Source of the DNA: Caldifarciminota bacterium
Lineage (GTDB): Bacteria; Hydrothermota; Hydrothermia; Hydrothermales; JAJRUZ01
DNA: 64,000 nucleotides
NCBI GenBank assembly: GCA_024277525.1
Contig: JAJRUZ010000042.1
Location: 62,001-126,000, forward strand
Direction of reading: 5' to 3'
Position numbers and translations under genes: made by a program. The first letter of the stretch is position 1; every line of letters starts with the position of its first letter. A model generated the notes under the pieces. That model did not search any database, was not told the origin of the DNA, and saw only the letters and a list, made by a program, of their open reading frames with translations. Shown here in pieces: positions 2,450-60,881 of this stretch.

Positions 2450-2976
2450 TGCCTTCTTTACAAAAGATTAAAATGGTTGAAAATTACAAAGAATTACTGG
2501 ATAATTTTAAAGCTATTTATGTGATTGATTTCACGGGTTTTACCGTGCCTGAGATGACCGAGTTAAGGAGAAGAGTAAAAGAAAGGAAAGGGCTTTTAAA
2601 AGTGGGAAGAAATCGGCTTTTTAAAATTGCTTTAAAAGAAAAAAATGTAAATGGGCTTGATGATTTCCTTGTCGGTGTTTCCGCGCTTCTGATTGCCTAT
2701 GAGGATCCTGTTGAGCCGCTTAAAGTATTTTATGATTATTCAAAGGAAAAAGGTAAGGGTGTTATAAAGGGCGGATATGTTGAAGGTGAGGTATTCGGGA
2801 AAGATAAAGTTGATTTTCTTGCAAAATTACCTTCAAGGGATGTACTTGTTCAGAATCTCCTTTCAAGAATTAAAGGTCCAGTGTATGGGCTTGTTTTTGT
2901 GTTAAGTGGTCTTATGAGAAATCTTGTTTTTATTTTGAATGAAATAAAGAACAAAAAAGAGGGTTCCAACCCCTGA
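2449..2976 (+). CDS. rplJ: 50S ribosomal protein L10
   Basis: This 175-aa L10 anchors L7/L12 dimers to the stalk. The N-terminal rRNA-binding domain carries VIDFTGFTVPEMTELRRRVK, and the C-terminal helix that docks L12 ends NEIKNKKEGSNP. Translation is coupled to rplA through TAATG. The last codons and stop overlap a T-arm-like hairpin (2960-2974) that precedes rplL. Confidence 0.95.
   Translation: MPSLQKIKMVENYKELLDNFKAIYVIDFTGFTVPEMTELRRRVKERKGLLKVGRNRLFKIALKEKNVNGLDDFLVGVSALLIAYEDPVEPLKVFYDYSKEKGKGVIKGGYVEGEVFGKDKVDFLAKLPSRDVLVQNLLSRIKGPVYGLVFVLSGLMRNLVFILNEIKNKKEGSNP
2960..2974 (+). promoter_or_regulatory. T-arm-like leader hairpin 1 (before rplL)
   Basis: AGGG-TTCCAAC-CCCT forms a 4-bp stem and 7-nt loop, 25 nt before the rplL ATG. 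No Shine-Dalgarno sequence is visible in the AT-rich spacer. The loop keeps T at position 1 and A at position 5 (tRNA 54 and 58). It overlaps the 3' end of rplJ. Confidence 0.5.
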
Positions 2977-3421: not shown

Positions 3422-3440
3422 AACCGGTCCGAATCCGGTT
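3422..3440 (+). promoter_or_regulatory. T-arm-like leader hairpin 2 (rplL-rpoB spacer)
   Basis: AACCGG-TCCGAAT-CCGGTT makes a 6-bp stem with a 7-nt loop, one base off the tRNA T-loop TTCGAAT. It ends 26 nt before the rpoB ATG. A T-rich run (CCCTTTTTT) starts 4 nt after the stem, so the same element could act as a partial terminator controlling the ratio of rplL to rpoB, as the rplL-rpoB spacer does in Escherichia coli. Confidence 0.55.
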
Positions 3441-7225: not shown

Positions 7226-10200
7226 ATGAAACAAAGTGTCGCAGGACTTTTGCCTGAAGTTTTAAAGGCGGTGAGGATAAAACTTGCCTCTCCGGAGGCA
7301 ATAAGGTCATGGTCATATGGTGAAGTAAAGTCAGCCGAGACAATAAATTACAGAACCCAAAGACCCGAAAGGGGTGGTTTATTCTGCGAAGTGATCTTTG
7401 GACCTGTTAAGGATTACGAATGTGCATGCGGGGCTTTTAAAGGAAAAAGATTCGGGGGAACGGTTTGTGATAAATGTGGTGTTGAAGTAACTTCTTCATC
7501 CGTTATAAGGGAAAGAATGGGACATATTGAACTTGCGGTACCTGTTGCACATATATGGTTTTATAAAATACCCCCATCAACAATTGCTTTATTGCTTGAT
7601 ATACCTTCTACGGATTTGGAGAGTATCTTATATTATGATAAATATATTGTAATAGACCCGGGTGATACGCCCCTTGAGAAAAAACAAATTTTATCAGACA
7701 GGGAATACGAGGAATATATGAGAGAATATAGAGGGGGATTTATGGCTGAAATGGGTGCTCCTGCGATTAAAAGACTCTTAAAAGAGATTAATCTTGAAGC
7801 ATTATCCGCTGAACTGAGGGTTAAATTAAGGTCAGAAAAAGTAGAGCATATTAAAGGAAAAATCCTGAAAAGATTACAGATAGTTGATGCCTTTTTAAAT
7901 TCCGGAAATAAACCTGAATGGATGATTCTTGAAGTTTTGCCTGTAATTCCTCCTGATCTAAGACCCCTTTTTCCTCTTGAAGGAGGAAGATATGCTACAA
8001 GTGATTTGAATGACCTTTACCGAAGGGTTATAAACAGAAATAACAGGATTAAGAATATAACAAAGATGGGAGCGCCTGAAATTATATTGAGGAATGAAAA
8101 AAGATTGCTTCAGGAAGCAGTTGATGCGCTTCTTGATAATTCCAGAAGATCGAGACCTGTGATGGGCAAACAAGGTAAACCTTATAAATCATTATCAGAT
8201 ATGCTCAGGGGTAAAAAAGGAAGATTCAGAAGGAACCTCCTCGGGAAAAGGGTTGACTATTCAGGTAGATCAGTAATAGTGGTGGGTCCCGAACTTAGAT
8301 TGCATGAAGTGGGTGTTCCGAAAGAGATGGCACTTGAACTTTTCAGACCCTTTGTGGAAAGAAGACTTGAGAAAAAAGGTATTGCAGAATCTTTAAGAAG
8401 TGCAAGAAGACTTGTAAGGGAAAGACCGGTGGAAGTGTGGGAAATCCTTGAGAATATTGTGAAAGACCATCCCGTTCTTTTAAATAGGGCGCCGACATTA
8501 CACAGGGTATCAATAGAAGCATTTTATCCCAAATTGATAGAAGGTAAAGCAATCCAGCTCCATCCGCTTGTTTGTCCCCCTTTCAATGCGGATTTTGATG
8601 GAGACCAGATGGCTGTTCATGTGCCTATTTCTCCCGAATCCCGTCTTGAATCACACTTTTTGATGCTTTCAAGACATAACATCTTATCTCCTGCACACGG
8701 TGCACCTCTTATGACTCCAACTCAGGACATGGTAATCGGAATTCATTACATTACAAAAATTAAAAAGGGAGCGAGAGGAGAAGGAAGGAAATTTGCCACC
8801 TTTAACGAAGCAATACTTGCTTATGAATTGGGTAAAATTGATTTACATGCAGAAATAGAGGTTGAAGAAATCGAAAGCAAAAATAAGAAAACAACTGTCG
8901 GTAGGATATTGTTTAACAGGATTGTTCCTGAAGGAATTGAGTATATAAATGAGGAAATGAACAAGAAGAAACTTGCAAATCTTGTAAAAAGGGTATATAT
9001 AGAGAAGGGTTCCCTTATATGTCAAGAATTCCTTGATAATTTGAAAGATATGGGATTTAAATGGGCTACAAGAGCGGGTGTTACTTTCGGTATAGATGAG
9101 ATGATTGTCCCTCCCGATAAAAAGACGATCTTGGAAAAAGCAGAGAGAAAGTTGCATAAAATCGAGAACGATTACATAAAAGGTAAAATTTCCGCGGGTG
9201 AGAGGTACAATGCGATTCTCGATTTATGGACAGAGGTAACCGATTTACTCACCGATAAGATGGTGGACTTAATGCAAAAAGATAGAAAAGGGTTTAATTC
9301 AATTTATATGATGATGAATTCGGGTGCAAGGGGTTCTCTTGATCAGGTGAAACAACTTGCGGCAATGAGGGGTCTTATGGCAAGACCAAAGAGAATAATA
9401 GGTCTTACGGGTGAATTTATTGAAACTCCTATTAAATCAAATCTGAAAGAAGGTATGTCTGTTCTGGAGTATTTCATTTCTACGCATGGAGCAAGGAAAG
9501 GTCTTGCGGATACTGCTTTGAAAACAGCCGATGCCGGATATTTAACAAGAAGATTAGTTGATGTAGCTCAGGCGGTTGTAATCAGTGAAGAAGATTGCGG
9601 AACAATTCAAGGGAGAGAAGTCTCTGCTCTTAAGGAAGGTGAAACTGTTATTGAAAGTTTATCCGAAAGAATTGAAGGACATTTCGCAGCAGAGAATGTC
9701 AGGAATCCGTTTACAAAGGAAATCATTGTAAAGGCAGGAGAACTCATAACAGAGGAAAAAGCAAAGGAAATAGAGAATCTTGGAATCGAAAAGGTAAGGG
9801 TAAGACATGTTTTAACTTGTGAGTCGAAAACAGGTATATGTGTAAAATGTTACGGTAAACACTTGGGAACAGGAAGAATCGTTGAAATAGGAGAACCTGT
9901 CGGAGTCCTGGCCGCTCAAAGTATCGGTGAACCCGGAACACAGCTTACATTGAGGACATTCCATGTAGGAGGAGCGGCTTCAAGGGTTATGGAAAAATCC
10001 AGGCATGAGGCACCTTTTAGAGGAAAAGTTGAATTTGTTAACCTTAAAGTGGCAACAAACAGTGAAGGTAAAAGTGTTGCAATTTCAAAAAAAGGTATGA
10101 TCCGAATATCTCATATTCAGAATCCGGAGGTAAAAAGGTCATTTGCTATACCTCAGGGTGCCGAAGTTCTTGTTAAAAACGGAGAAGAAGTTGATAAAGG

Positions 10201-17066: not shown

Positions 17067-18452
17067 TCATGGAATTGAACCGAGTTCAACTTCCTCAAAT
17101 TTTGATAGAGCATCCATAATAATACTTTTAATTTCCTCCATCCTTTCAGGGGTTTTACCTTCAAATCTCAATACAAGTACGGGCTGAGTATTGGATGCTC
17201 TTACAAGTCCAAAACCGTCAGGGAATATAATTCTCACTCCATCAATGTCCAAAATTTTATATTTTTTTGAAAATTTCTTCTTGAGTTTTTCGACTACCTT
17301 GAATTTGTGTTCATCAGGACAATTTATTCTTATTTCTGGAGTGGAATAATAAAAGGGGATTTCATCAACAAGTTCAGATACCTTTTTACCGAAAGAATCA
17401 AGTACCTCAATAAATCTTAAAGAAGCATAGATTGCGTCATCAAATCCATAAAACCTGTCATTAAAAAAGAGATGTCCTGACATTTCTCCTGCTATCGGGG
17501 CGTTCTCTTCCCTCAATTTTGCTTTAATTAAAGAATGTCCTGTTTTCCACATAAGCGGAATTCCTCCTAAGGATTTTATGTATTCATAAACTCCTTGTGA
17601 GCATTTCACATCAAAAATAATTTTCTCTCCTTTTCTTTCTTCAAGAACTTTTTTTGAAAGAATTGCAAGAATTTTATCTCCATAAATGATTCTATATTTT
17701 TCATCTATAACCCCGAACCTGTCTCCGTCTCCATCAAATCCGAAACCCGCTGTAAAATCTCCTTTTTTCTTCATAAACTCAATCAAATCTTTCATATATT
17801 TTTCCACAGTCGGATCAGGGAGATGATTTGGGAAATTTCCGTCAGGTTCCATATAAATTCCCTCAAATTTAATATTCATCTCTTTATAAAGTCTTTCAAC
17901 CACAGGACCGCATGTTCCGTTTCCCGGATCAACCCCGAATTTGAAATTTTCCGGATTCCATATTTTTATTCTTTCCTTCACTTCTTTTATATACTCATCA
18001 ACAATGTCCTCTTTAATCCATCTTTTACCATGTCCTTCAGTATATTCTCCTTTTTCAACCATCTCTTTTATTTTCTGTATTTCTTTTCCGTAAACGGTTT
18101 CTTTTCCGCACATTATTTTTATTCCGTTGAACTCTTTGGGATTATGACTTCCTGTAACCTGTATTCCTCCGTCAACTCCGAGGTGAAAAACCGAGAAATA
18201 GAGGAGGGGAGTAGGAACCATACCGATATCTATTACATGAAGTCCTGACTTCAAGAAAGCATCAAGTAAGACATTTTTAATTCTCGGTGAAGACAATCTC
18301 GCATCCCTCCCCAAGGTTACGGTTTTACCTCCTTTGGAAATTAAATAAGAAGCTATTGCCTTTCCTATATGCCATACATTTTCATCCTTTAAATCTTCGT
18401 CTGCAATTCCGCGAATATCGTATTCCCGAAAAATAAAAGGGTTTATTTTCAT
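17067..18452 (-). CDS. Phosphomannomutase/phosphoglucomutase
   Basis: This 461-aa member of the alpha-D-phosphohexomutase family interconverts hexose-1- and hexose-6-phosphates. The four domains show the phosphoserine loop TGSHNPKEFNG, the metal loop GFDGDGDRFG, the sugar-specificity loop GEMSGHLFF (the form found in dual-specificity AlgC-type enzymes) and the phosphate loop RASNTQPVLVLRFEG. It supplies activated mannose or glucose for the following glycosyltransferase. The bactofilin gene starts 18 nt downstream. Confidence 0.92.
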   Translation of the reverse strand: MKINPFIFREYDIRGIADEDLKDENVWHIGKAIASYLISKGGKTVTLGRDARLSSPRIKNVLLDAFLKSGLHVIDIGMVPTPLLYFSVFHLGVDGGIQVTGSHNPKEFNGIKIMCGKETVYGKEIQKIKEMVEKGEYTEGHGKRWIKEDIVDEYIKEVKERIKIWNPENFKFGVDPGNGTCGPVVERLYKEMNIKFEGIYMEPDGNFPNHLPDPTVEKYMKDLIEFMKKKGDFTAGFGFDGDGDRFGVIDEKYRIIYGDKILAILSKKVLEERKGEKIIFDVKCSQGVYEYIKSLGGIPLMWKTGHSLIKAKLREENAPIAGEMSGHLFFNDRFYGFDDAIYASLRFIEVLDSFGKKVSELVDEIPFYYSTPEIRINCPDEHKFKVVEKLKKKFSKKYKILDIDGVRIIFPDGFGLVRASNTQPVLVLRFEGKTPERMEEIKSIIMDALSKFEEVELGSIP

Positions 18453-23026: not shown

Positions 23027-23041
23027 AGGGAATTGAACCCT
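23027..23041 (-). promoter_or_regulatory. T-arm-like leader hairpin 3 (before the adhesin-like gene)
   Basis: In the minus-strand sense it reads AGGG-TTCAATT-CCCT, a 4-bp stem with a 7-nt loop, ending 23 nt before the ATG at 23003. An AT-rich stretch with TATAAA about 12 nt upstream could be the -10 region, which would put the hairpin near the mRNA 5' end. Confidence 0.55.
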
Positions 23042-24488: not shown

Positions 24489-24501
24489 GGGTTCAAATCC
24501 C
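24489..24501 (+). promoter_or_regulatory. T-arm-like leader hairpin 4 (before the DUF5916 gene)
   Basis: GGG-TTCAAAT-CCC has a 3-bp GC stem and a loop identical to that of the tRNA-Trp T arm in this window. It ends 21 nt before the ATG at 24523. The intervening AT-rich leader has no Shine-Dalgarno sequence. Confidence 0.5.
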
Positions 24502-42725: not shown

Positions 42726-42740
42726 AAGGAATTGAACCTT
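42726..42740 (-). promoter_or_regulatory. T-arm-like leader hairpin 5 (before the por operon)
   Basis: In the minus sense it reads AAGG-TTCAATT-CCTT: 4-bp stem, 7-nt loop, ending 30 nt before the porG ATG. TATTAAT about 15 nt upstream may be the -10 box. The leader between the hairpin and ATG holds a clear AGGAGG. Confidence 0.5.
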
Positions 42741-48870: not shown

Positions 48871-49809
48871 ATGAAATTATCAAAACTTATTTCAAAAATA
48901 GAAGATTTTGAGGAACTTGAGCCGGATATTATAAAAAAAATTTTCGGTTCAGAGGGAAGGGCACATCGAATCGGTTTTACAGGTCCGCCCGGAGCAGGAA
49001 AAAGCACATTGAGCGATATAATTGCAAGAAAACTGCTCGAAGAAAACAAAAAAGTAGGAATTTTAGCAGTTGATCCGACAAGTCCTTTTACAGGAGGAGC
49101 AATTCTGGGTGACAGGATAAGGATGTCAGAAGCAATGAAAAAAGGAGCCTTTATAAGAAGCATAGGCACAAGAGGAGGAATAGGTGGATTATCAAGAAGA
49201 ACTTATCTTTCGTCCCTGTCAATGGAATCTTTCGGCATGGATTACATAATTATTGAGACAGTGGGAGTAGGACAAGCAGATTTTGAAGTGAAGTTCATAG
49301 TTGATACTGTATGTGTAGTTTTAACTCCTGAATCCGGTGATTATGTTCAAGCAATGAAGGCAGGACTTATGGAAATCGGTGATATTTACATTATAAACAA
49401 GTGCGATAGACCCGGAGCAAAGGAAATAGCAGGTGAAATTAAAAATGCCCTTGACCTGATACCCATTGAAACAGAATGGAATCCCCCTGTTCTACTTACT
49501 AACGGCATAAAAGAAGAGGGAATGGAAGAAGTAAAAAAATATATACTTGAACATCAAAGATATTTGAATGGCACCGGTTTAAAAAACGAGATAATAAACA
49601 AAAGGAGAAAAAGATTTTTAATTGAATTTTTAAGAGATGAAATATGGGATGAGATTCAGGAGTTTCTTGAAAAGAACGGTCTTATTGATAATTATTTAAT
49701 AGAACTTAAAAACGGTACAACTTTTGAAGAGATAAAGAAAAAATTTTTAAATATGTTTTTACAAAAAGGGTTCAAAACCCTGAAAACGAAGAATAAAAAG
49801 TATGGATAA
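48871..49809 (+). CDS. meaB: MeaB/ArgK-type G3E GTPase, chaperone of methylmalonyl-CoA mutase
   Basis: About 312 aa from ATG 48871, chosen because GGAG sits 5 nt before it; the track start at 48856 adds five residues and overlaps the upstream stop. The Walker A is [42 protein letters not shown] and [12 protein letters not shown] are diagnostic MeaB motifs, and NKCDRPGA gives base specificity. It protects the mutase and gates adenosylcobalamin loading. It overlaps the mutase gene by 8 nt, confirming the pairing. Confidence 0.95.
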
Positions 49810-53395: not shown

Positions 53396-53863
53396 TTACC
53401 CTGTTGGTTCTATTTTAAATAATTTTTGCCCGTATTCAACGGGCTCACCGTTTTTAACCAGGATTTCCTTTACAATTCCCTCAACGTCGGATTCAATTTC
53501 ATTCATTATTTTCATTGCTTCAATTATACACACAACCTGACCCGGTTTTACATGGGAACCGACCTCAACATAAGGGTCAGCATCAGGAGCAGGTGCTCTG
53601 TAAAATGTTCCGACAAGAGGAGCAGTTATGTAATAAAACTTATCCTCCCTTTCTTCAACAACTTTTTCTTCTTCGGGTAATTTAAGCTCTTTTATTTCCT
53701 TCTCACTTATTTGTGAATTTTCTATTGTCTTACCGGTTTTTATAATTTCCCCTTTTTTTAAATGTATTTTCAAAAATGGCTTTTTTATTTCAATTTCAAC
53801 AAGACCCTTTTTTTCCATTAATTCAATCAATTTTTCGATTTTTTTTATATCTTTATCATTCAT
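53396..53863 (-). CDS. accB: Biotin carboxyl carrier protein of acetyl-CoA carboxylase
   Basis: The 155-aa protein has an N-terminal helix, a charged Lys/Glu linker instead of the usual Pro/Ala hinge, and a biotinyl domain (about 78-155) with the biotin site EAMKIMNE. AccC, its usual downstream neighbour, is absent here. The start overlaps the efp stop by 4 nt. Efp-accB adjacency is common in bacteria; pilT as the third gene is not. Confidence 0.93.
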   Translation of the reverse strand: MNDKDIKKIEKLIELMEKKGLVEIEIKKPFLKIHLKKGEIIKTGKTIENSQISEKEIKELKLPEEEKVVEEREDKFYYITAPLVGTFYRAPAPDADPYVEVGSHVKPGQVVCIIEAMKIMNEIESDVEGIVKEILVKNGEPVEYGQKLFKIEPTG

Positions 53864-54408
53864 GCCCTTTCTATGAATTCTCCTGTTCTTGTATCAACCT
53901 TTATTTTTTCTCCGATTTTAATATAAAGGGGAACCTTAACAACAAGACCTGTTTCAAGCTTTGCAGGCTTTGATCCGCCTGAGGCGGTATCTCCCCTCAC
54001 TCCGGGGTCAGTATCCACAACTTCAAGAACAACCGCAGTCGGTAAAACAATTCCGATGGGTTTTTCTTCCACATATTGAATCCTCACTTCCTGTCCCTCC
54101 GTTAAATAAAGAAGTGCATCTTCTATAAGTTCTTTATTCAAAATAATTTCTTCATAATTTTCGGTATCATAAAAATAATAATTATCACCCTGAGAATAGG
54201 AATAGGTTGCTTCCCTTTCCCTGAGTTCAACTTCTTCAAATGTGTCGGATTCCCTTATTGTTCTTTCAAAGACCTGTCCTGTTTCCACATTTTTAAGTTT
54301 TGCCTTGACAAAAGCATGTCCTCTTCCCAGCATCACATGTTGAAAGTCAACAACCTGAAATATTTTTCCTTCAAATTTAATAACCATTCCGCGTCTGAAT
54401 TCAGGCAT
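53860..54408 (-). CDS. efp: Translation elongation factor P with an Arg tip
   Basis: The 182-aa protein has the three beta-barrel domains of EF-P, which rescues ribosomes stalled at polyproline. The loop tip reads VMLGRGHAF, so the residue matching Lys34 of E. coli is Arg29 and the preceding Pro-Gly is Leu-Gly. That places it with Arg-type EF-P, which in EarP-containing bacteria is rhamnosylated; no earP is in the window. First gene of efp-accB-pilT. The ATG has no Shine-Dalgarno sequence but a T-arm-like hairpin 17 nt upstream. Confidence 0.95.
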   Translation of the reverse strand: MPEFRRGMVIKFEGKIFQVVDFQHVMLGRGHAFVKAKLKNVETGQVFERTIRESDTFEEVELREREATYSYSQGDNYYFYDTENYEEIILNKELIEDALLYLTEGQEVRIQYVEEKPIGIVLPTAVVLEVVDTDPGVRGDTASGGSKPAKLETGLVVKVPLYIKIGEKIKVDTRTGEFIERA

Positions 54409-54425
54409 AATTTTACAAATTTAAA

Positions 54426-54440
54426 AAGGATTTGAACCTT
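54426..54440 (-). promoter_or_regulatory. T-arm-like leader hairpin 6 (before efp)
   Basis: In the minus sense AAGG-TTCAAAT-CCTT forms a 4-bp stem and the exact tRNA-Trp T-loop, ending 17 nt before the efp ATG. TAAAAT about 8 nt upstream is a possible -10. It faces the opposite way from hairpin 7 at 54550, which serves the divergent gene. Confidence 0.55.
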
Positions 54441-54505
54441 AATTTAATATTTTAAAGCAAAAAATGTTAAAATTTAAATTTAATACCAAAACTTATGATT
54501 CTAAG

Positions 54506-54535
54506 TTGCATTTTTTTTTCATTGTATTATATATT
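54506..54535 (+). promoter_or_regulatory. Promoter of the interrupted cysteine-hairpin gene
   Basis: TTGCAT (54506-54511) and TATATT (54530-54535) are 18 bp apart. Transcription would begin near 54542, about 8 nt before T-arm-like hairpin 7, followed by GGGAGG and the ATG at 54589. Confidence 0.5.
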
Positions 54536-54549
54536 ACTCCTTATTTTAG

Positions 54550-54564
54550 AGGGTTGAATTCCCT
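54550..54564 (+). promoter_or_regulatory. T-arm-like leader hairpin 7 (before 54589)
   Basis: AGGG-TTGAATT-CCCT: 4-bp stem, 7-nt loop with one change (C56 to G) from the tRNA T-loop, ending 24 nt before the ATG. A strong GGGAGG ribosome site lies between the hairpin and the start. Confidence 0.5.
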
Positions 54565-54588: not shown

Positions 54589-55767
54589 ATGAAAAAAATG
54601 ATAATAGGTAGCATAATAACAGGGGTGATTTTATTCCTGTACTTCTGCAAAAAAGTTTCAAGCACTGTGGAACCCTCTTTAAATATTCAGCATACATATG
54701 GATATATTATTATAAATGAAACATATAAAGATACAATAAATATTTCAGGCAACCCTTATAAAATCTCAACGGGGAGGGAATTTGCGTTAAATCATCTTTA
54801 TGCAATAAAATATTCGTTGGAAAATGGAGAAGCAGAGTTTCGACCAGAAAACAAAAAGAAAACTCTTATAAATAAAATGAATGCATTAATTAATATGGTA
54901 AATACAGGCGGAATAAAGGGGGCAAAACAGAAAATTTTAAATGATATTTTCCCTTATGCTAAAAAATGGGTAAGGGGAGACGTAAGATGTGCATTATTCA
55001 GAGCTTTGGAAAGCAGTTTATATGGACTTTAACATCCTCAGGATACAATAATTTTTGAGCCTTTACAAACTTCCCTTTACCCGCTTGTTGAAAATACTTA
55101 TGAAATAAAAGTGGATGTAATTGTCCTTATAGCTGGTACTTATATTAAGGGAGACTTTGTAGAAATAATTCCTCTTCCATATACAATTTATGAAAAAATG
55201 GACGAAAACACCTTCTCGATGGCTAAGGAATATTTTCTCTCCTTGCCTGAAACACAAAGAGCATTGAATGTACTCCGTCAAAAAGGATGGGCAGATGATT
55301 TTCACTTAGAGGGTTCTTTCGGAATTGTAATGGATCCTGCTGGACCTGGATACCCCGAAGGATATTTCAATAAGCATTACGCAATAATTTTTGGCGTACC
55401 TGTTTTAAAACAGGATTCGTCCAGAATATCGCAAATAATAATTGGAAGTGACGGGTATCTCAATTACGTGTGGGGTGTATCTTGGAAGGTTTATTCTTCT
55501 GATAGTGCAGTAATTGATTATCTTTTTGAAGTTGTAGAAGGTAAAATTTATGAAGAAATAACACCTGCAAATAGGTTACGGATGCTTTTAAGTCCCTTAC
55601 ACCCAATTGTAGCATGTTGGTTAGCATGTATGGCTGCTTGTGAAGCCGGATGTTATTACGAAAACTGGGATAATTGGGAAGATATTGCAGATTGTGTAAA
55701 TGGGTGTGTAATATCCTGCTCCATATTATGCGGACTTTCAGGTTTATTTAGACTTCTACCTCGATAA
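54589..55767 (+). pseudogene. Exported protein with C-terminal double CX3CX3CX3C hairpin, interrupted by an in-frame stop
   Basis: The reading frame from ATG 54589 stops at TAA 55030-55032, then continues open in the same frame to 55767. The second part has no ribosome site at its first start codon (GTG 55111), and meaningful sequence runs from the stop itself, so one gene of about 392 codons has been split. Part 1 has an N-terminal hydrophobic signal/anchor (MKKMIIGSIITGVILFLYFC). The C-terminus has eight Cys: C-X3-C-X3-C-X3-C, 13 residues, then the same again (codons 55615-55731), suggesting a disulfide-stapled helical hairpin. Nothing else is recognised. Readthrough or a sequencing error could make it functional. 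Confidence 0.65.
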
Positions 55768-60868: not shown

Positions 60869-60881
60869 GGTTCAACTCCTC
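60867..60881 (+). promoter_or_regulatory. T-arm-like leader hairpin 8 (before 60905)
   Basis: GAGG-TTCAACT-CCTC forms a 4-bp stem with a 7-nt T-loop-like loop, ending 23 nt before the ATG at 60905. It overlaps the stop codon of the upstream gene (TGA 60866-60868). GGGGAGG lies between the hairpin and the start. Confidence 0.5.

Follow-up and report, generated by a model that had tools for sequence, protein, structure and literature searches.

A tRNA T-arm-like leader hairpin anchored to start codons in one bacterial family and its probable role in translation initiation

The DNA analysed here, termed the window, is a stretch of 64,000 nucleotides from the genome of a Caldifarciminota bacterium. 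Within it, the gene of elongation factor P (efp) and an orphan gene with a signal-like N-terminus face away from each other, and each is preceded by a short hairpin resembling the T-arm of tRNA and reading in the sense of its own gene (Table 1). Both hairpins, which had been reported in a first-pass annotation, were found exactly at these positions and on these strands. Eight further copies of the element were located in the window, while a search of the window against Rfam at the gathering score returned two tRNAs only and left the element unmatched.

Table 1. Hairpins, element cores and neighbouring genes in the window. SD, Shine-Dalgarno sequence; distances run from the core to the start codon.
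Feature	Coordinates	Strand	Remarks
Element core GGTTCCAACCC	2962..2972	+	27 nt before rplL (L7/L12) start, 3000
Element core GGTCCGAATCC	3426..3436	+	30 nt before rpoB start, 3467; U55 to C variant, six-pair stem; position taken from the leader sequence
Element core GGTTCAATTCC	17071..17081	-	22 nt before start codon 17048; no SD; located where the upstream ORF ends
Element core GGTTCAATTCC, AG/CT outer pairs	23029..23039	-	25 nt before start codon 23003
Element core GGTTCAAATCC	24490..24500	+	22 nt before start codon 24523; no SD
Element core GGTTCAATTCC, AA/TT outer pairs	42728..42738	-	32 nt before start codon 42695; SD AGGAGG
Pyruvate/ferredoxin oxidoreductase subunit gene	start 42695	-	behind the 42728..42738 copy
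Element core GGTTCAAAACC	49769..49779	+	22 nt before methylmalonyl-CoA mutase start, 49802; no SD
efp, elongation factor P	53860..54408	-	Pfam EFP_N, EFP, Elong-fact-P_C; downstream of the minus-strand hairpin
T-arm-like leader hairpin of efp, AAGG-UUCAAAU-CCUU	54426..54440	-	core 54428-54438; core end 19 nt before efp ATG (54408); no SD
T-arm-like leader hairpin of the 54589 gene, AGGG-UUGAAUU-CCCU	54550..54564	+	core 54552-54562; core end 26 nt before ATG 54589; SD GGAGG
Orphan gene, signal-like N-terminus	54589..55032	+	downstream of the plus-strand hairpin
Element core GGTTCAACTCC, TGA/TCA outer pairs	60869..60879	+	25 nt before start codon 60905; overlaps the upstream stop codon

The efp copy is an exemplary member of the set. 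In the 2.34-Mb genome there are 19 exact occurrences of its 15-mer, AAGG-TTCAAAT-CCTT (AAGGTTCAAATCCTT), versus none of the reversed control, so that chance does not account for the hairpins; the degenerate core GGTTSAANTCC is found 188 times in the genome versus twice in the control. The plus-strand copy fits the element in stem, orientation and spacing and departs from the consensus at loop position 3, where C56 is replaced by G, a change seen in five copies including this one, as compared with 131 copies of exact consensus. Its gene had no match in a Pfam search and has weak homologues in three relatives only. Because of this G and of a poorly conserved host gene devoid of known domain, the plus-strand copy is the weaker example of the two, and the pair cannot serve, as had been proposed, as the cleanest argument for an action in RNA, the decisive evidence being family-wide. 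Behind the 54589 gene, an ORF in a different frame (55111-55767) also lacks a Pfam match. The homologues of the first ORF sit in longer open frames (362 aa in G003, 526 aa in G004), and the two ORFs, spanning 54589-55767, may be one gene split by a frameshift.

Four genomes of the family were sampled, that of the window (G000) and three relatives (G001, G002 and G003), in stretches amounting to about 2.03 Mb, with genes called by a simple codon-usage caller. The element was found in sense orientation before 169 of 1,730 genes (9.8%), including those for ribosomal proteins S8, S20 and L7/L12, the alpha and beta subunits of RNA polymerase, IF3, Rho, FtsZ, GAPDH, enolase and SAM synthetase. Across these genomes, the leader motif is R-GG-UUCNANY-CC-Y. 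Its core, GG-UUCNANY-CC, is the consensus of the tRNA T-arm and is closed by one to two further covarying pairs. With tRNA T-arms counted in, G52-C62 closes GUUCNANNC in 157 of the 165 cases lying 12-45 nt before a start. After removal of true tRNAs with ARAGORN, the next pair outward was Watson-Crick in 104 of 142 copies versus 53 expected (z=9.4), the second outer pair covaried weakly (z=2.9) and the third, which would be the fifth pair of the stem, did not covary. The stem is hence made of two fixed and two covarying pairs; a five-pair stem, as in the real T-stem, appeared only as long as tRNAs were kept in the set. In the outer stem, G-U pairs are no more frequent than A-C mismatches (27 vs 28), and this comparison therefore does not separate pairing in RNA from pairing in DNA.

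The loop is of 7 nt and matches the base pattern of a T-loop: U54, A58 and the G53-C61 pair are practically fixed, while positions 57, 59 and 60 are free, as they are in the T-loop of tRNA. Among one-mismatch variants lying near the right distance, appreciable variation is confined to position 55 (U to C, nine cases) and position 56 (C to A, G or U, 17 cases). Matches with a 6- or 8-nt loop were considered and discarded, nearly all of them belonging to genes with a 7-nt copy and being mostly re-readings of that copy. The bases fixed here are those which make the T-loop fold, and from them alone we infer that the hairpin adopts this three-dimensional fold. Nearest-neighbour folding, a model which credits no T-loop contacts, predicts a weak hairpin, with a mean pair probability of 0.31 for G53-C61. 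In the sequence outside the hairpin, no conserved flank, no tRNA sequence beyond the T-arm and no acceptor-stem-like flank were found. The copies in which U55 is replaced by C, such as that of rpoB, carry G at position 57 in four of eight cases as compared with 15 of 161 otherwise, and are perhaps a distinct sub-type of hairpin.

The position of the element is set by the start codon. Between the end of the core and the start codon lie 19-28 nt, most often 23, and the median of this distance is nearly identical in operon-like genes, defined by a gap of up to 45 nt (22 nt, n=45), and in divergent genes (23 nt, n=43). Moreover, 23 of the 45 operon-like copies begin within the upstream ORF. Since copies behind promoters and copies within operons share this spacing, and since an overlap with the upstream ORF is frequent, the anchor of the element is the start codon, in RNA, rather than a promoter. 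Similarly, when no gene calls were used and an ATG-opened ORF of at least 40 codons was sought 17-30 nt past each site, one was present for 160 of 263 strict-core sites, versus seven of 181 sites of the reversed pattern. With a relaxed core, such an ORF followed 195 of 531 sites in the sense orientation and 16 of 531 as the reverse complement, which bears out the earlier contention that orientation is informative. Nearly all of 81 sites viewed individually lie directly 5' of a start codon in sense orientation, the exceptions being tRNA T-arms.

Collectively, the fixed orientation, the fixed spacing, the covarying outer pairs and the copies within operons and upstream ORFs sustain the proposal of an element at work in the transcript of its downstream gene, as opposed to a symmetric DNA operator. 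Operon-internal copies are presumably co-transcribed with the gene upstream, which for these copies counters the objection that the hairpins might be missing from the mRNAs. The association with transcription start sites fared less well. A start had been predicted about 8 nt before the plus-strand hairpin, and no sigma-70-like promoter was found to place one there, the nearest plus-strand match ending at 54473; the four promoter matches of the efp/54589 region hardly exceed those of shuffled sequences (mean 1.7, sd 1.5). More generally, the distance of the element to -10-like hexamers is loose, whereas its spacing from the start codon varies little whatever the context.

The element is restricted to one bacterial family. 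AGGTTCAAWTCCT is counted 45 times in G000, 34 in G001, 44 in G003 and six in G002, versus zero to seven times in the remaining 143 genomes surveyed from this phylum. The leader-spaced pattern GGTTCNANYCC-N18-27-ATG is found 182, 131, 145 and 91 times in G000, G001, G003 and G002, respectively, and 3-28 times per genome in the other 143, where many of the matches listed resemble tRNA 3' ends; beyond the family and two outgroups, this distribution is drawn from pattern counts. The two outgroups, one from the same order (G004) and one from the same class (G011), were read directly and contained no leader copy in 657 genes. Inside the family, orthologues are mostly 66-70% identical and the element is kept while the remaining leader has diverged. 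Between G000 and G003, it is present in both orthologues in eight cases and in one only in four and two cases, the corresponding figures for G000 and G001 being eight, zero and three.

The presence of the element is associated with loss of the Shine-Dalgarno sequence (SD) on genes whose outgroup orthologues have one. A strong SD precedes 25 of 31 outgroup orthologues of element genes as compared with 47 of 141 other outgroup genes (p=1.7e-6), and 15 of 41 element genes of the family (p=2.8e-4 vs the outgroup orthologues). For other genes, the proportion goes from 33% in the outgroups to 25% in the family (p=0.09). This comparison covers 31 genes from two outgroups, some of them paired with several family genes, and the gene caller weights SDs in family and outgroups alike. 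For efp, the element is present and a clear SD is absent in all four family genomes, while the leaders of four outgroups (G005, G006, G008 and G009) comprise no copy of the element and an SD in three cases. The anti-SD sequence CACCTCC is encoded at the 16S 3' end in three of the four family genomes. Within the family, SDs are not rarer in element genes, 35% of which have a strong SD versus 23% of other genes; the claim of replacement consequently stands on the orthologue comparison, and the element cannot be regarded as a pure SD substitute. Many SD-less genes likewise lack the element. In leaders without SD the spacing is shorter and tighter than in those with one (22.2 +/- 3.8 vs 27.1 +/- 5.1 nt).

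Considering these data, the element is rather probably an mRNA hairpin, folded as a T-loop, which promotes translation initiation and supplements or replaces the SD, a reading drawn from sequence comparison. In such a mechanism, a cis-acting hairpin of 3-4 bp, with a 7-nt loop bearing the T-loop signature (U54, A58, G53-C61) about 23 nt before the start, would be read as a T-loop, either by the 30S subunit itself or by a factor associated with it, and this recognition would help the 30S subunit to find or hold the start codon. The pseudouridine synthase TruB is the obvious candidate partner, its substrate consensus in the T-arm being GUUYRANYC and a TruB-type motif being known in bacterial mRNA. 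TruB is a possible binding partner which the sequence pattern does not require; a component of the ribosome, or some other protein that binds T-loops, is no less likely. A further-reaching proposal, to which we give somewhat less than even weight, is that the family evolved a second, SD-independent mark of the start codon: the initiating ribosome, or a factor attached to it, would recognise a T-arm mimic as a T-loop, and this mimic would have displaced the SD on many core genes.

The start signals generally recognised in bacteria are SDs, unstructured leaders and leaderless starts. Like the SD, the element has a fixed spacing to the start codon, is found on genes in high demand and appears to take the place of the SD in some leaders. 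However, it is structured, has no complementarity to the anti-SD and can coexist with an SD, its core lying 19-28 nt before the start and containing no GGAGG, whereas SDs are positioned at 5-10 nt. As in SD-independent initiation from AT-rich unstructured leaders or leaderless mRNAs, genes without SD are initiated, but these modes rely on the absence of structure or of a leader, while the element is a specific, conserved and structured signal. With the tRNA T-arm it shares the 7-nt UUCNANY loop closed by G-C, with the same fixed and free positions; it differs in standing alone in mRNA, in register with a start codon, with a stem of 3-4 pairs and neither partner D-loop nor acceptor stem. The yjdF riboswitch and the T-box also are tRNA-related structures in bacterial leaders, yet they are long RNAs sensing a ligand or a tRNA, whereas the element is a single hairpin of 13-19 nt present on about one tenth of genes.

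None of the known element classes compared was found to match, and a partial survey of the literature on T-arm- or T-loop-like elements in bacterial mRNA contained no description of the element, novelty being in this sense unproven. Given a hairpin about 23 bases before the start and the frequent loss of the usual ribosome-binding sequence, it has the appearance of a translation start signal not described so far. If so, a compact, structured and tRNA-mimicking signal on about one tenth of genes would represent a new way of selecting start sites, which would tie recognition of the tRNA elbow to the choice of mRNA and bear on how SD-less bacterial genes are initiated. The proposal is directly testable, as 13-19 nt can be transferred into a reporter.

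Among other explanations, the hairpins might be mRNA substrates of TruB, perhaps also of TrmFO or TrmA, with pseudouridine at U55 or the bound enzyme setting stability or translation. TruB accepts a 17-nt T-arm with GUUYRANYC (PMC7912444), and a TruB-type motif, GU-Psi-CG, has been seen in bacterial mRNA (PMC13236023). The known mRNA targets of TruB, Pus4 and TRUB1, which are GUUCNANNC hairpins, have a near-identical consensus; they are nevertheless scattered sites identified by modification mapping, while the element is systematic, located in leaders and at a fixed spacing. TruB is present as a single copy in all family genomes, and 117 of the 169 copies fit GUUYRANYC, but it is equally single-copy in relatives devoid of such leaders, and the 52 copies which deviate are all at the right distance. 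Among these 52 are 18 copies without C at position 56 and eight with C at position 55, where pseudouridylation is then impossible. Moreover, modification alone would leave the tight spacing to the start codon unexplained, and we regard this explanation as unlikely. The truB gene of the window's genome (G000:C48, L143 1422-2151) ends after 242 aa and misses a C-terminal stretch which is present in the three family relatives (303-304 aa) and in other relatives, the shortening being either genuine or the product of a frameshift or assembly fault.

Slightly more doubtful still is a function of the hairpin in protection or processing of the mRNA, as a stability or endonuclease signal without direct role in initiation. 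Short hairpins in the leaders of core genes would suit this function, and in tRNA both RNase P and RNase Z make contact with the T-arm (PMC4810234). However, the spacing is set by the start codon, within operons too, and a link to SDs present in the outgroups and lost in the family would not be expected. In addition, RNase P and RNase Z use the acceptor stem, of which the flanks of the element show no likeness.

Binding of a transcription regulator to the element as a DNA operator or promoter motif is very improbable: the outer pairs are palindromic and often shortly follow an AT-rich -10-like sequence, but the single orientation and the start-codon spacing, kept even in upstream ORFs while -10-like hexamers lie at loose distances, rule out such anchoring, and the free covariation of the outer pairs without any conserved flank contradicts it as well. 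Weakest of all, a functionless origin from degenerate tRNA genes or from a mobile repeat of tRNA descent would agree with the T-arm match and with true tRNA genes sometimes lying 9-20 nt before start codons, but is already contradicted by the lack of likeness outside the hairpin, by orthologous leaders which keep the hairpin while other parts differ, and by the same adjacency of tRNA genes in outgroups without the element.

Several tRNA genes, both of the family and of the outgroups, indeed have only 9-20 nt between their end and the next start codon, and such genes were consequently discarded as origin or partner of the element. At L045 ~7296-7325 (minus strand), a tRNA gene is directly followed by a second fragment resembling a tRNA 3' end, GGTTCAAATCCCACGGCTCCCT. 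The T-arm of this fragment lies 23 nt before the next gene, and the fragment is possibly a partial tRNA used as a leader element.
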